64,000 bases of DNA, taken from assembly GCF_034661235.1 (NCBI RefSeq), contig NZ_CP141059.1, forward strand, positions 3,905,501 through 3,969,500. The letters are read 5' to 3'. The first letter of the stretch is position 1. Every line of letters begins with the position of its first letter. A program made the translations under genes and the position numbers. The notes beneath the pieces are model-generated. The model saw only the letters and a list, made by a program, of their open reading frames with translations, did no database searches and had not been told where the DNA came from. Below, one piece after another: positions 8,282 to 33,114 of this stretch. Source of the DNA: Nocardioides bizhenqiangii. GTDB taxonomy: Bacteria; Actinomycetota; Actinomycetes; Propionibacteriales; Nocardioidaceae.

Positions 8282-9742
8282 TTAGGGGTTGTTGAAGACG
8301 GGGAGCGCCTCGCCGTGGATGGGCGAGGTGAGCGTCGCCTCCAGGAGGTGCTTGCCGAGCAGGCTCTCGTCGGGCAGCGGGATCGGGTACTCGCCCGTGA
8401 AGCAGGCGGTGCACAGGTTGTCCTGGGGCTGGCCGGTCGCCTCGACCATCCCGTCGAGCGAGATGTAGCCGAGCGTGTCGGCACCCACGCTCGAGGCGAT
8501 CTCGTCGACGTCGAGGCCGTTGGCGATCAGCTCGGCACGGGTCGCGAAGTCGATGCCGTAGAAGCAGGGCCACTTCACCGGCGGGCTCGAGATCCGCACG
8601 TGGACCTCGGTCGCGCCCGCCTCGCGGAGCATCCGGATCTGGGCCCGCTGGGTGTTGCCGCGCACGATCGAGTCGTCGACCACGACGATCCGCTTGCCGC
8701 GGATCATGTGGTCGAGCGCGTTCAGCTTGAGCCGGATGCCGAGCTGGCGGAGGGTCTGGCTGGGCTGGATGAAGGTGCGTCCGACGTAGGCGTTCTTGAC
8801 GAAGCCCTGACCGAACGGGATGCCGCTCTCGAGCGCGTAGCCGGAGGCCGCCGGGGTGCCGGACTCGGGCACCGGGATCACCAGGTCTGCCTCGACCGGG
8901 AACTGCCGGGCCAGCTCACGACCCATCTCGACCCGGGCCTCGTGGACGCTGCGGCCGGCGATGTGGGCGTCGGGACGGGCCAGGTAGACGTACTCGAACA
9001 CGCAGCCCTTGCGCCTCGGCTCGGCGAACTTGTGGGAGCGCAGCCCGCCCTCGTCGATGACGATCAGCTCACCGGGCTCGACCTCGCGGACCACGCTGGC
9101 GCCGATGGTGGCGAGCGCGGCGCTCTCGCTCGCGACCACCCAGCCGCGGTCGAGGCGGCCGAGGACGAGCGGGCGGAGACCTTCGGGGTCGCGCGCGGCG
9201 TACAGCGAGTCCTCGTTCATGAAGACGAAGCAGAACGCGCCCTTGACGTTGGGCAGCAGCTCGACGGCGCGGGCCTCGAGGGACTGGTCGGGGTGGTGCG
9301 CGAGGAGCGCCGTCACCAGACCGGTGTCGTTGGTCGACGCCTCGAGGTCGCGGGCGTGGATGTCGAGCTCGTCCTCGTCGCTCGGCAGGTCGTGGACCAT
9401 CTGCGCGAGGTCGGCGGTGTTGATCAGGTTGCCGTTGTGTCCCAGCGCGATCGAGCCGTGGGCGGTCGGGCGGAACGTCGGCTGGGCGTTCTGCCACGTG
9501 CTCGCGCCGGTGGTCGAGTAGCGGCAGTGCCCGACGGCGAGGTGGCCCTGGAACGAGTCGAGGGTGGTCTCGTCGAACACCTGCGAGACCAGGCCCATGT
9601 CCTTGTAGACGAGGATCTGGCGCCCGTTGCTGACCGAGATGCCCGCCGACTCCTGGCCGCGGTGCTGGAGCGCGTAGAGCCCGAAGTAGGTGAGCTTCGC
9701 GACGTCCTCACCGGGGGCCCAGACGCCGAATACGCCGCACAC
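8282..9742 (-). CDS. purF: Amidophosphoribosyltransferase
   Basis: PurF commits PRPP to purine synthesis by transferring ammonia from glutamine to form phosphoribosylamine. The N-terminal glutaminase starts directly with CGVFGVWAP and the PRPP loop VVVDDSIVRGNT is at about residues 350-362. The GTG at 9742 is chosen over the GTG at 9751: a TACAGT hexamer ends 7 nt upstream of 9742 and would overlap the earlier codon. With this start, Met removal leaves the catalytic cysteine as residue 1. It is followed 8 nt later by purM. A 22-bp repeat array lies upstream of its promoter. Confidence 0.95.
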   Translation of the reverse strand: MCGVFGVWAPGEDVAKLTYFGLYALQHRGQESAGISVSNGRQILVYKDMGLVSQVFDETTLDSFQGHLAVGHCRYSTTGASTWQNAQPTFRPTAHGSIALGHNGNLINTADLAQMVHDLPSDEDELDIHARDLEASTNDTGLVTALLAHHPDQSLEARAVELLPNVKGAFCFVFMNEDSLYAARDPEGLRPLVLGRLDRGWVVASESAALATIGASVVREVEPGELIVIDEGGLRSHKFAEPRRKGCVFEYVYLARPDAHIAGRSVHEARVEMGRELARQFPVEADLVIPVPESGTPAASGYALESGIPFGQGFVKNAYVGRTFIQPSQTLRQLGIRLKLNALDHMIRGKRIVVVDDSIVRGNTQRAQIRMLREAGATEVHVRISSPPVKWPCFYGIDFATRAELIANGLDVDEIASSVGADTLGYISLDGMVEATGQPQDNLCTACFTGEYPIPLPDESLLGKHLLEATLTSPIHGEALPVFNNP

Positions 9743-9749
9743 GTGGGCC

Positions 9750-9755
9750 ACTGTA
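9750..9755 (-). promoter_or_regulatory. Leaderless -10 hexamer TACAGT of purF
   Basis: TACAGT (minus strand) lies 7 nt before the GTG at 9742 and decides between two candidate purF starts. Confidence 0.65.
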
Positions 9756-9811
9756 TCGGCCGGTCGCCCTCAATCCCGTTTCGGCGCGGGCGTGGGACGG
9801 ATCACTGACCC

Positions 9812-9914
9812 GCGAAGTGTCGATGCTGGTCGCGCGAAGTGTCGATGTCGGCCCCGCGAGGTGTCGGCGTTTGCCGGGCGAGGTGGCGACGTTTGCCGGG
9901 CGAGGTGGCGGCTA
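9812..9914. repeat. 22-bp tandem repeat array upstream of purF
   Basis: Units begin at 9812, 9834, 9856, 9878 and 9900, an exact 22-bp spacing. On the plus strand each opens with GCGARGTGKCG; the first two carry AGTGTCGATG, the later ones drift to AGGTGGCGACG. The last unit runs into the stop codon of the M20 peptidase gene (9912-9914). The copies diverge but the period is kept. The minus-strand core ATCGACACT recurs at the purD-purB array. Confidence 0.85.
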
Positions 9915-11291
9915 CAGGGTGCCGGCCGCGGACTCGGCGCCCAGGTTGCGCAGCAGCAGGGCCTCGGCGACGAGGACCCTCTCGAACTCGGCGAGGTGGA
10001 GGCCCTCGTTGGCGCCGTGCGCGCGGGTGTCGGGGTCCTCGACGCCCGTGACCAGGACGCTGGCGTCCGGCATCGCGTCGAGGAACTCGGCGATGAACGG
10101 GATCGAGCCCCCGACGCCCATGTCGACCGGTTCGGTGCCGTCCCATGCCTCGGCGAACGCGGAGCGGGCGGCGTCGTAGGCCGGTCCGGTGACGTCGAGG
10201 GCGATCGGCTCGCCGGTGTCGACGACCTCGATCGACAGCTGGGCGCCCCACGGGACGTGCTTCTCGAGGTGCTGGCGCAGGCAGGCGAGAGCGTTCTCCG
10301 AGGTCTCACCCGGAGCGGTGCGGAGCGCGAGCCGGGCCCGGGCGGCGGGGATGAGGGTGTTGGACGACCCGTCGACCTTGGGGGCGTCGAGGCCGATCAC
10401 GGAGAGGGCGGGCTGGGTCCAGAGCCGCTCCACCTTCGGGCCGGAGCCGATCCAGTCCACGCCGGGGGCCACGCCCGACTCGGCGCGCAGCCGCTCCTCC
10501 GGGTAGTCGACGTCGGCGGCGCGACCGGTCACCAGGCCTTCGACCCGGAGGTTGCCGTCGTCGTCGTGGAGCGAGGCGATCAGCCGCGACAGGGTGATCA
10601 GGGAGTCGGGGACCAGGCCGCCCCACATGCCCTGGTGGACGGCGTGGGTCAGGGTGCGCACCTCGACGTTGACCCGGACCAGGCCGCGAAGGCTGGTGGT
10701 CAGGGCCGGGACGCCGATGTCCCAGTTGCCCGAGTCGGCGATGACGATGACGTCGGCCCGGAGGTCGTCGAGATTCTGCTCGAGCAGCTGCGGGAGGGTC
10801 GCGCTGGCGACCTCCTCCTCCCCCTCGACGAAGAGGCGGACCGTGACGGGGAGCTCGTCGCCGAGCACCCGCAGGGCGGCGACGTGCGCCATGATCCCCG
10901 CCTTGTCGTCGGCCGCGCCGCGCCCATAGAGACGGGGGCCGTCGCGCCCCTCACGAACCGTCGGCTCCCACGGCGGGCTGTCCCAGTCGGCGGGGTCGTT
11001 CTCGGGCTGGACGTCGTGGTGGGCGTAGAGGAGCACGACGGGCGCACCCTCCGGGCCGCGCTTCTCCCCGATCACCGCAGGGGGCGCACCGTCGTACGCC
11101 CGGACGATGCGGGCGTCGACACCCTCGGCACGGAACAGGGCCGCGGTCGCCTCGGCGGACCGTTCGACCTCGGTGAGCCGCCCGGGATCGGCGCTCACCG
11201 ACTGGATGCGGACCAGGTCCTCGAGATCCTTGCGCACGCCCGGCAGCACGCTGGCGACCCGGGCGCGGATGTCGTCACTCACCATCGTCAT
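9912..11291 (-). CDS. M20 family dipeptidase
   Basis: A cytoplasmic di-zinc metallopeptidase of 459 residues with all ligand motifs: YAHHDVQPEN (His, Asp), GRGAADDKAG (bridging Asp), EGEEEVAS (catalytic and ligand Glu) and a late histidine in DTRAHGANEGLH. It cleaves dipeptides or related N-acyl amino acids; the exact substrate cannot be read from sequence. The ATG at 11291 has TACGGT 6 nt upstream, so the transcript is probably leaderless. The stop codon is embedded in the last copy of the 22-bp repeat array. The sterol-carrier-like gene ends 25 nt before its start. Confidence 0.92.
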   Translation of the reverse strand: MTMVSDDIRARVASVLPGVRKDLEDLVRIQSVSADPGRLTEVERSAEATAALFRAEGVDARIVRAYDGAPPAVIGEKRGPEGAPVVLLYAHHDVQPENDPADWDSPPWEPTVREGRDGPRLYGRGAADDKAGIMAHVAALRVLGDELPVTVRLFVEGEEEVASATLPQLLEQNLDDLRADVIVIADSGNWDIGVPALTTSLRGLVRVNVEVRTLTHAVHQGMWGGLVPDSLITLSRLIASLHDDDGNLRVEGLVTGRAADVDYPEERLRAESGVAPGVDWIGSGPKVERLWTQPALSVIGLDAPKVDGSSNTLIPAARARLALRTAPGETSENALACLRQHLEKHVPWGAQLSIEVVDTGEPIALDVTGPAYDAARSAFAEAWDGTEPVDMGVGGSIPFIAEFLDAMPDASVLVTGVEDPDTRAHGANEGLHLAEFERVLVAEALLLRNLGAESAAGTL

Positions 11292-11717: not shown

Positions 11718-12761
11718 ATGCGGGCGCGTGCTGTGATCGGTTCCATCGTCCTCGTGCTGTCCGCGGCGCTGGCTGCGTGCGGCGAGGAGCAGGACACCAT
11801 CAAGGCCGGCGACCTCATCCAGGCGAGCGCGGACGACCAGTTCAAGGACGGCAAGGAGGCGACCGTCACGCTCCCGACCGGGCGGCTGCTGATCCACACC
11901 GCCGAGCCGGTCGACAGCGCGACGGGCGACGACACCCGCACCCGGCAGGCGGTCGACGCCCCGAGCGGTGCGGTGCTGGTGCCGATCAGCTGGCAGTACG
12001 ACCCCTGGGACCAGGGCCGCCTCGAGCGGATCGTCGACAGCTCCGACACCCCCATCGTCGACCTGGTGACCGACGAGGAGCGCTACCGGTTGCCGCCGCC
12101 GGAGCTCGGCGACGAGGGCGGCGAGTCGTTCTACGTCGTCGTCGACGGCGAGGCCGAGGACCGCTCGCTGGAGATCGAGTTCGACGGCGTCACGCAATCG
12201 GTGAACCTCGCGAACGGCCGTACCGACGCGGGCGACGCCGCCGCGCTCTACGACATCCGGGACGACGCGCTGCAGAAGGCGTCCTGCGACGACGACGAGC
12301 GCTGGTTCGACAGCGTCACGGTCTCCGCCGAGTTCACCTGCGACCGGTTCGGGCCGGTGCTCACGCCCTACGCCGCTGGCGAGTGGGCACCCGAGGGCAG
12401 TCTGTGGCTGGCGCTGACGGTGCAGACCGAGATGCGCATCTACGCCGAGGCCAACCTGCTCGGCGGCGGCGCGCGCTTCGTCGCCACGGACGTCACGGTG
12501 AAGCCTGACATCGACGGCGACGAACCCACGTTCGTGATCTCGGCCGACAACGACGACGACACCTGCCCGAGTCCGTTGACGACCGCCTGCGGATGGAGCA
12601 AGACCCTGATCTTCGAGGTGCCGGCGGACGACGCCGAGCAGGGACCGCTCGACCTCGACGTGGCCTACCGGATGAAGGTCGCCATCGCATGGGGCGGTCA
12701 CATCCCGCCGAAGCGGATGAAGGTCGAGGCGTCCGAGGAGATCAAGCTCTGGGACGACTGA
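11718..12761 (+). CDS. Predicted lipoprotein, unknown function
   Basis: The 347-residue protein starts with a lipoprotein signal: RAR, a hydrophobic stretch, and the lipobox LAAC with the modified cysteine at about residue 21. The mature part is acidic and has four cysteines that could form disulfides (two near SCDDDERWF/EFTCDRFG, two near DDTCPSPLTTACGW). No domain is recognised. CACAAT lies 7 nt before the ATG at 11718, a near-match to the leaderless hexamer; another ATG at 11709 is possible. Its 3' end overlaps kynU by 20 bp in convergent orientation. Confidence 0.75.
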   Translation: MRARAVIGSIVLVLSAALAACGEEQDTIKAGDLIQASADDQFKDGKEATVTLPTGRLLIHTAEPVDSATGDDTRTRQAVDAPSGAVLVPISWQYDPWDQGRLERIVDSSDTPIVDLVTDEERYRLPPPELGDEGGESFYVVVDGEAEDRSLEIEFDGVTQSVNLANGRTDAGDAAALYDIRDDALQKASCDDDERWFDSVTVSAEFTCDRFGPVLTPYAAGEWAPEGSLWLALTVQTEMRIYAEANLLGGGARFVATDVTVKPDIDGDEPTFVISADNDDDTCPSPLTTACGWSKTLIFEVPADDAEQGPLDLDVAYRMKVAIAWGGHIPPKRMKVEASEEIKLWDD

Positions 12762-26222: not shown

Positions 26223-27092
26223 TCAGCCCACCGCAGCGCGCACGACGGCTTCGTACTCCTCCAGGTCCACCCATTCCAGCGACCCGACCAGCGCGCGGAA
26301 CTCCGCCGCCCCGAGCGTGCTGGTCTCGAGCAGCAGCCCCGGGCCGCCGTCGTCGACGGGGGACGTGAGCAGAACCTGGTACTCCTGGCCCTCCTGCACG
26401 AAACCGGTGAGCCGGCCGGTCACACCGAGGACGTCGATCCGGTCGCCGGCCCGGTCGTAGCGGTCGTAGGCGAACGGGTCCGCCGAATCCGTCTGCACCC
26501 AGGTCAGGTGCACCTCACGGCCCCCGGGGCCGACCCAGTCGAGGTCCATGTTGTAGACGCCTTCCACCCGCCAGCCTTCGGCGGTGAGCAGCACGGGCTT
26601 CGGCGGCCGCTGGTACCGCTCCTGCTGGACGAGGTCACCGGGCTGCTGCTCCTGGAGGATCACCTCGTCGCAGTGCGCGAACTCGGGGCCGTCCGTCGCC
26701 GGCGTCGGGCCGCCTCCGTAGCTGAGGATGCAGGCGTTCTCGGCTGTCTCCGTGGCGGTGTCGGCGCTCGGGCTCTCGGCGCTCGGGCTCTCGGCGCTGG
26801 GGCTCTCGGTGCTGGGGCTCTCGGCGCTGGGGTTCTCCGCCGGAGAGGAGGGACCGGACCCGAAGCCCGGGCTACGCGGCGAGGTGTCCGGCCCCTCACC
26901 GGCCGACAGCGCCCAGGCGCTGCCGGCGACGGCGACGACGGCCGCTGCGGCCGCGAGCGGCACCAGCAGCCCACGGTAGGAACGGTCCGTGCTCGTGCTG
27001 CTCTGCATGATCTCCTCCAGAAGCTCGGCGCGCCCCTCGGCGATGGGCAGACCGGCGACGCCCTGGTCGGTGATCCTCTGACGTGCGCTCAT
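26223..27092 (-). CDS. Single-pass membrane protein paired with ECF sigma factor
   Basis: The 289-residue protein has a cytoplasmic head of about 45 residues, one transmembrane helix (LLVPLAAAAAVVAVAGSAWAL), a stalk of five-residue ESPSA repeats, and an external domain of about 170 residues with two cysteines (NACILSYGG, AHCDEV) and no known fold. Its ATG overlaps the sigma factor stop (ATGA, 27089-27092), the arrangement typical of sigma/anti-sigma pairs. The head lacks an obvious zinc-binding HxxxCxxC motif, so anti-sigma function is an inference from position. Confidence 0.7.
   Translation of the reverse strand: MSARQRITDQGVAGLPIAEGRAELLEEIMQSSTSTDRSYRGLLVPLAAAAAVVAVAGSAWALSAGEGPDTSPRSPGFGSGPSSPAENPSAESPSTESPSAESPSAESPSADTATETAENACILSYGGGPTPATDGPEFAHCDEVILQEQQPGDLVQQERYQRPPKPVLLTAEGWRVEGVYNMDLDWVGPGGREVHLTWVQTDSADPFAYDRYDRAGDRIDVLGVTGRLTGFVQEGQEYQVLLTSPVDDGGPGLLLETSTLGAAEFRALVGSLEWVDLEEYEAVVRAAVG
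26761..26835. repeat. 15-bp tandem repeat encoding a Ser/Pro stalk
   Basis: Five 15-bp units begin at 26761, 26776, 26791, 26806 and 26821 with few substitutions. They encode the repeated SAESP stalk between membrane helix and outer domain. The in-frame unit length means copy-number changes would lengthen or shorten the stalk without a frameshift. Confidence 0.85.
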
Positions 27093-32946: not shown

Positions 32947-32967
32947 GTGCCTCATTCTCCCATGGCC

Positions 32968-33022
32968 TCGAATCGACAGGTTTGCATCGTCGAATCGACA
33001 AGATTGGTCCTTCGAGTTGACT
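32968..33022. repeat. 22-bp repeat array, block A (upstream of purB)
   Basis: TCGAATCGACA starts at 32968 and 32990, and the variant TCGAGTTGACT at 33012, giving exact 22-bp spacing with diverged sequence between. This is the reverse complement of the core in block B, so the two blocks face each other in the gap between purD and purB. Confidence 0.8.
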
Positions 33023-33048
33023 CAGATGGTCAGGCGCCACGCCGAGCC

Positions 33049-33114
33049 TGTCGATTCGACGCACCATGAGTGTCGATTCGACGCACCATGAGTGTCGATT
33101 CGACCTAATCCTTG
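33049..33114. repeat. 22-bp repeat array, block B (at purD stop)
   Basis: Units begin at 33049, 33071 and 33093. The first two are identical 22-mers that open TGTCGATTCGAC; the third keeps only the first 12 nt and then runs into the purD stop codon (33105-33107). On the minus strand the units contain ATCGACACT, the same core as in the array upstream of purF. Confidence 0.85.

Follow-up and report, generated by a model that had tools for sequence, protein, structure and literature searches.

A 22-bp phased array beside purF in Nocardioides bizhenqiangii as a probable copy of a dispersed repeat whose families accompany AbiEi-like nuclease genes

Between purF and an M20 family peptidase gene of Nocardioides bizhenqiangii lies an array of short units at a pitch of exactly 22 bp, which raises the question of whether it serves purF or belongs to something more widely distributed. 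The array occupies positions 9811..9912 (plus strand) of the window, the whole 64-kb stretch of DNA that was analysed. It is one-armed and consists of four full units (9811-9832, 9833-9854, 9855-9876 and 9877-9898) and a fifth of 14 nt (9899-9912). Its outer end, CCCGCGAAGTG, faces purF (TIGR01134; 8282..9742, minus strand), whose GTG start was placed near 9742 by reading the sequence against relatives. The other end touches the stop codon (9912-9914) of the M20 family peptidase gene (NCBIfam PRK07907; 9912..11408, minus strand). The five evenly spaced units described in the initial annotation are real: 22 is the best period of the intergenic region, with 53 of 66 positions equal at that offset, and none of 1000 dinucleotide shuffles reached as high a periodicity. 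The last unit does reach the M20 stop codon as had been described, since it ends at 9912, the first base of the CTA that forms the TAG stop on the minus strand. When the window is ranked by offset-22 score, the purF array comes first and an array between purD and purB second (46/66). The window also holds a 15-bp tandem repeat, TCGGCGCTGGGGCTC, at 26761-26837 (5.1 copies, 93% matches, within long ORFs).

A role of the array in the control of purF or of purine genes is unsupported, because purF of the close relative Nocardioides immobilis has no array, the fold of the array is ordinary, and neither Rfam nor a terminator search gives a match. The z values of the RNA fold are unremarkable (0.53 and 0.78), the region 9600-10050 contains no terminator-like site (a hairpin followed by a T run), and no Rfam family matches at gathering score anywhere in the window. 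Genomes G229 and G102 of the genus encode an M20 protein 91% identical to that of the window, and the former shares a contig with N. immobilis (loci L243 and L139 are identical on reading). At purF this genome has no array, yet the stretch directly upstream of the gene is conserved there.

Within this genome, the period-spaced core is confined to the two arrays. Allowing up to two mismatches, AGTGTCGAT-N13-AGTGTCGAT has three matches in the 4.55-Mb genome, all within the purF and purD-purB arrays, and none for the reversed control; with at most one mismatch, a single match turns up among the other 197 family genomes. The core proposed earlier as common to the two arrays is literally present in both as the 9-mer ATCGACACT, at purF only in the first two units. 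It is not the homologous part of the units, because it lies in opposite orientation once the two families are set in register by reading (CGAA....TGGTC), and the 9-mer was rejected as a unit of homology.

The purD-purB array (32967..33108) is two-armed, with units at 32967 and 32989 in one orientation and at 33049, 33071 and 33093 in the other, spaced by 22 bp within each arm. It folds strongly (RNA fold z -4.58 and -6.15). Its unit, GTCGAATCGACANNNATGGTC, has 29 matches in the genome of the window against none for the reversed pattern, and 27 of these fall at 10 loci, nine of them besides the purD-purB array; all 14 neighbouring same-orientation pairs of the family are spaced by 22 bp. Fourteen other genomes of the genus hold 0-14 matches each, and by eye the two with the most (14 and 8) carry a related motif. 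The purD-purB array belongs to a different family from the purF array, one cognate to a resident gene described below as nuclease A.

The family to which the purF array is related was found in N. immobilis, which came to light with the same 22-bp array in a scan of the collection for two copies of CGAAGTGTCGA (55 stretches). In that genome, GCGAAGTGTCGATGTTGG has 64 matches with at most three mismatches, compared with 3 for the reversed pattern. Both orientations occur in 18 of 22 clusters (one of the 18, L130, is probably noise), and neighbouring units of the same orientation are spaced by 22 bp in 52 of 54 pairs and by 44 bp in the other two. On reading, the array unit next to purF resembles the N. 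immobilis consensus most closely, and those further inside drift. The CGAAGTGTCGA scan also met a 23-bp pitch elsewhere. In Corynebacterium sp. Marseille-P4321 (L104, 3250-3400), four CGAAGTGTCGA and two CAAAGTGTCGA units stand shortly ahead of an ORF starting MTRYMGTETEYGI, and in Coriobacteriaceae and Collinsella (L066, L090, L099 and L107) pairs of CGAAGTGTCGA at this pitch are possibly the ends of insertion sequences.

Some copies of the N. immobilis family lie inside genes. An in-frame array in a gene that reads as dinG-like is missing from all 14 aligned relatives; this is not a clean empty site, because it lies in a linker whose length varies among the relatives. A second in-gene array is found in an ABC-F-like gene. 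No target-site duplication is evident at purF compared with N. immobilis, or in the dinG-like gene, in alignments too diverged to set boundaries. Together, the dispersed copies, the presence or absence of an array between close relatives and the in-gene copies support the suggestion in the initial annotation of a slowly decaying mobile repeat. Its other suggestion, a phased protein-binding array, is plausible in the sense that the array would be a putative site of a cognate AbiEi-nuclease protein.

This protein is the product of a gene that recurs between the arrays. In both N. bizhenqiangii and N. immobilis, one gene lies between opposite arrays of the family motif: nuclease A of N. bizhenqiangii (contig C1, 276502-277443; 314 aa), and in N. 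immobilis a counterpart of 322 aa with 48% identity across 283 residues. Residues 10-189 of nuclease A match AbiEi models (PADLOC), and its C-terminus matches MTES_1575 and DUF559 just below the Pfam cut-offs. Among 32 proteins of the family scanned against Pfam at E <= 0.01, MTES_1575 was matched by 29, DUF559 by 22, AbiEi_4 by 18 and AbiEi_1 by 17, and no transposase family, Y1/HUH included, was listed. MTES_1575 is described as having a Vsr-like fold (PMC3710099). On these profile matches, the gene product is predicted to join an AbiEi-like DNA-binding part to a Vsr-like nuclease. The residues that do not vary in alignments of 45 and of 32 proteins include E200, Q218, D232, E243, D245, G246, R263 and R264; matches to solved structures are weak, the best being 3hrl (E 0.0093). 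N. bizhenqiangii has four such nuclease genes. At three of them the arrays are clear and the flanks inverted; at the fourth the flanks are inverted as well, but the arrays are weak, being equalled by 2 and 4 of 200 shuffles. Within the window, profile searches find no nuclease gene, and tblastn gives one 34-residue match (11847-11948, E 0.001). In viral contigs, 15 stretches match a pattern and none encodes a relative, and 72,556 plasmid records gave one partial match, in a record of 11.85 Mb.

The association of gene and array extends through the genus and beyond. At 29 nuclease loci of the genus (30 with L190, which was dropped at a contig end), each compared with 20 shuffles, a 20-23-bp array is present on at least one flank at 26, on both flanks at 21, and an inverted repeat connects the flanks at 27. 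The corresponding numbers are 5, 0 and 2 for 29 control loci at the M20 gene, where the arrays of L050, L054 and L055 are among the five, and 1, 0 and 0 for 28 control loci of the window's own genome, some of which overlap one another. Outside the genus, where periods of 16-47 were permitted and two loci were dropped for contig ends, 34 loci show arrays at 20, arrays on both flanks at 10 and inverted flanks at 28, and the flanks are often long palindromes. Homologues of the nuclease occur in 195 of 196 genomes of the genus; in the class, 240 of 345 genomes and 107 of the 126 genera sampled have them. Arrays based on TGATCATGCA flank the nuclease loci L281, L287, L289, L290 and L293, so that the same word is seen across several families of the class.

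TCCACAG motifs, often in the form TTATCCACAG or CGTCCACAG, lie 190-230 nt upstream of nuclease genes (e.g. L172, L189 and L304). At least one is found upstream on the plus strand at 27 of 28 genus loci, compared with 0/28 downstream and 2/28 in shuffled sequence, and 29 of 31 loci from other genera have the motif on either strand. We take these motifs to resemble the DnaA box.

Whether each array is cognate to the nuclease of its own genome was assessed by scoring arrays against the sequences that flank 72 nuclease loci in 56 genomes. For the purD array, the top score comes from its own genome (31.0, next 23.5). The purF array matches N. immobilis best (49.5, next 21.5), and its own genome ranks third with 13.5. 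It matches the nuclease loci of its own genome poorly and is therefore probably an orphan in N. bizhenqiangii. For arrays downstream of the M20 gene in other species, the own genome is best of the 56 for G232 (45.0, next 19.0) and for G187 (46.5, next 44.0, from G257) and only fifth for G219. Over all M20-downstream regions of other genomes, most of which have no array, 41 of 49 could be ranked (8 genomes have no nuclease flank in the set). The own genome came first in three, L054, L055 and L046, the last at chance level, and fifth in the array-bearing L050. For L053 and L325 the best match is G302, so that they look like orphans, as the purF array does. A 17-letter G232 motif was tried as a cognate-motif scan and set aside as too unspecific (30 matches in G232 against 20 reversed, and 3-12 in 14 other genomes).

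We turn to where the copies sit, with genes called by a simple codon model and both families of the two genomes taken together. Of 34 clusters, two of which (L166 at 1543, and L130) are probably noise, 29 are within 45 bp of a stop codon and 22, counted over rows, within 5 bp. The clusters lie between convergent genes in 17 cases, tandem genes in 12 and divergent genes in 1, with 3 inside genes and 1 unclassified; for comparison, the predicted intergenic regions of at least 60 bp in the window are tandem in 17 cases, divergent in 8 and convergent in 1. Behind this M20 stop codon, the arrays found in other species differ in sequence; that of L050 precedes purF, and those of L054 and L055 precede other genes. 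In L039, L040, L041, L048, L058 and L064, long imperfect palindromes of other sequence (e.g. with arms containing TTGTAACTA) stand directly behind the M20 stop and resemble additional repeat families.

This preference for gene ends, with half of the clusters between convergent genes, is also what would be expected if selection maintained the arrays because they terminate host transcription or stabilise mRNA 3' ends, with the nuclease gene merely caught between two of them. The strong fold of the purD array agrees with such a role, as do copies that on reading enclose a terminator-like hairpin (L146 and L170). However, the purF array has neither an unusual fold nor a terminator-like site, some N. 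immobilis arrays are inside genes, the motifs are species-specific and match the nuclease flanks, and inverted flanks occur at 27/29 nuclease loci against 2/29 controls. This explanation, although the best of the alternatives, is unlikely.

Dispersed copies with inverted arms, some of them in genes, could also be what remains of a conventional insertion sequence or MITE that another transposase of the genome moved, with the nuclease gene a passenger or a homing-type invader; its nuclease part has weak profile similarity to a mobile-intron nuclease (3r3p, E 0.42). The arrays do resemble MITEs and insertion sequences in their non-autonomous dispersed copies, their inverted ends and an interval with one gene. 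They differ in that the flanked gene has no known transposase domain, no target duplication is seen and the ends are multi-unit arrays. Furthermore, the same kind of gene lies between arrays locus after locus while the motifs differ, and no other gene was seen to be common to the array-flanked intervals, which makes this origin improbable.

Slightly less credible again is the reading that the units are operators through which AbiEi-like regulators control transcription, including that of their own gene. The gene product matches AbiEi models, and AbiEi proteins bind inverted repeats in promoters (PMC7319586), but the copies are at the 3' ends of genes, with one cluster of the 34 between divergent genes, arrays are present on both flanks of the gene at 21/29 loci, and some copies are inside genes. 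Finally, a local tandem duplication that drifted and was retained as a purF-specific binding array, for which it might speak that in this genome only two arrays, both close to pur genes, hold the 22-bp-spaced 9-mer, is very improbable given that the units match a dispersed N. immobilis family, that the purD array comes from another family with 9 further loci, and that the M20-downstream regions of relatives have no arrays or other motifs.

The explanation that we favour, and consider likely, is that the purF array is a lone copy, one-armed and drifting, of a dispersed mobile repeat of REP-like kind whose families have a cognate AbiEi-nuclease gene. The members of a family consist of 21-22-bp units in arrays directly behind stop codons, often with two arms in inverted orientation, and the cognate chromosomal gene sits between inverted arrays of the same motif. 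In the proposed mechanism, by analogy with AbiEi proteins, the AbiEi part may read one unit, and units two helical turns apart could place several protomers on the same face of the DNA. The nuclease would then cut the ends of arrays or hairpins, with the result that gene ends receive copied or pasted repeats and not the gene itself. The copies at stop codons, some around terminator-like hairpins, suggest that hairpins or gene ends are the target. The purF copy may have been left when a nuclease of the N. immobilis type was lost here or when the motif of the resident nuclease changed, or it may have come from a relative; it would now be decaying.

The closest known systems are REP, BIME and REPIN elements with their TnpA-REP (RAYT) enzymes, and the repeat and nuclease together resemble a REPtron with an unrelated enzyme. 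A REPtron combines dispersed repeats with an HUH enzyme, each repeat type having a gene of its own and each genome holding several types (PMC6006769 and PMC3733652). The likenesses are that the repeats are short and extragenic and are dispersed, in direct and inverted copies, at the ends of genes and occasionally within them; that a chromosomal gene lies between repeats of its own kind; that one genome holds more than one type; and that repeat and gene appear to co-evolve, with the repeats spreading and not the gene. Unlike in a REPtron, the enzyme is an AbiEi-like part with a Vsr-like nuclease and has no Y1/HUH transposase match, and unlike REP, the units form phased 21-22-bp arrays in a host group that is here the Actinomycetes. 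Reading of the purF, purD and own-family units showed no short hairpin with a GTAG (or GT[AG]G) foot. Membership among REPtrons thus fails on the enzyme and on this foot, and what is claimed by analogy is a similar way of working.

Each half of the predicted protein has known relatives in other settings. Its N-terminal two-thirds matches the AbiEi antitoxins of the type IV toxin-antitoxin system AbiE, described as binders of inverted repeats (PMC7319586), but here the AbiEi-like part is fused to a nuclease domain. Its C-terminal domain matches the profiles of MTES_1575/DUF559 Vsr-like nucleases (PMC3710099); the proteins with this domain described in that paper are HEPN/helicase fusions of very large size and do not accompany repeats. 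A search of the open-licence literature found no prior description of a pairing between AbiEi-like nucleases and repeats.

A broader proposal, in which our belief is evenly divided, is that these systems are a class-wide actinobacterial counterpart of REP-RAYT, in which dispersed families of phased repeats or palindromes would each be written and maintained by their own AbiEi-Vsr-like nuclease. The gene of this nuclease has DnaA-box-like sites and might act together with chromosome replication. Such a system would have an origin independent of the HUH transposases and would explain many so far unassigned intergenic repeats of actinobacteria.

If repeat families are tied to AbiEi-Vsr-like nuclease genes, this gives a source for repeats in the Actinomycetes and an enzyme-repeat pair that can be tested, and it is a caution against taking such arrays for promoter-proximal operators. 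If true, it would also be a second, independent case of chromosomal nucleases that make repeats, beside the RAYTs, and would offer a function for a protein family present in most of the class genomes surveyed.
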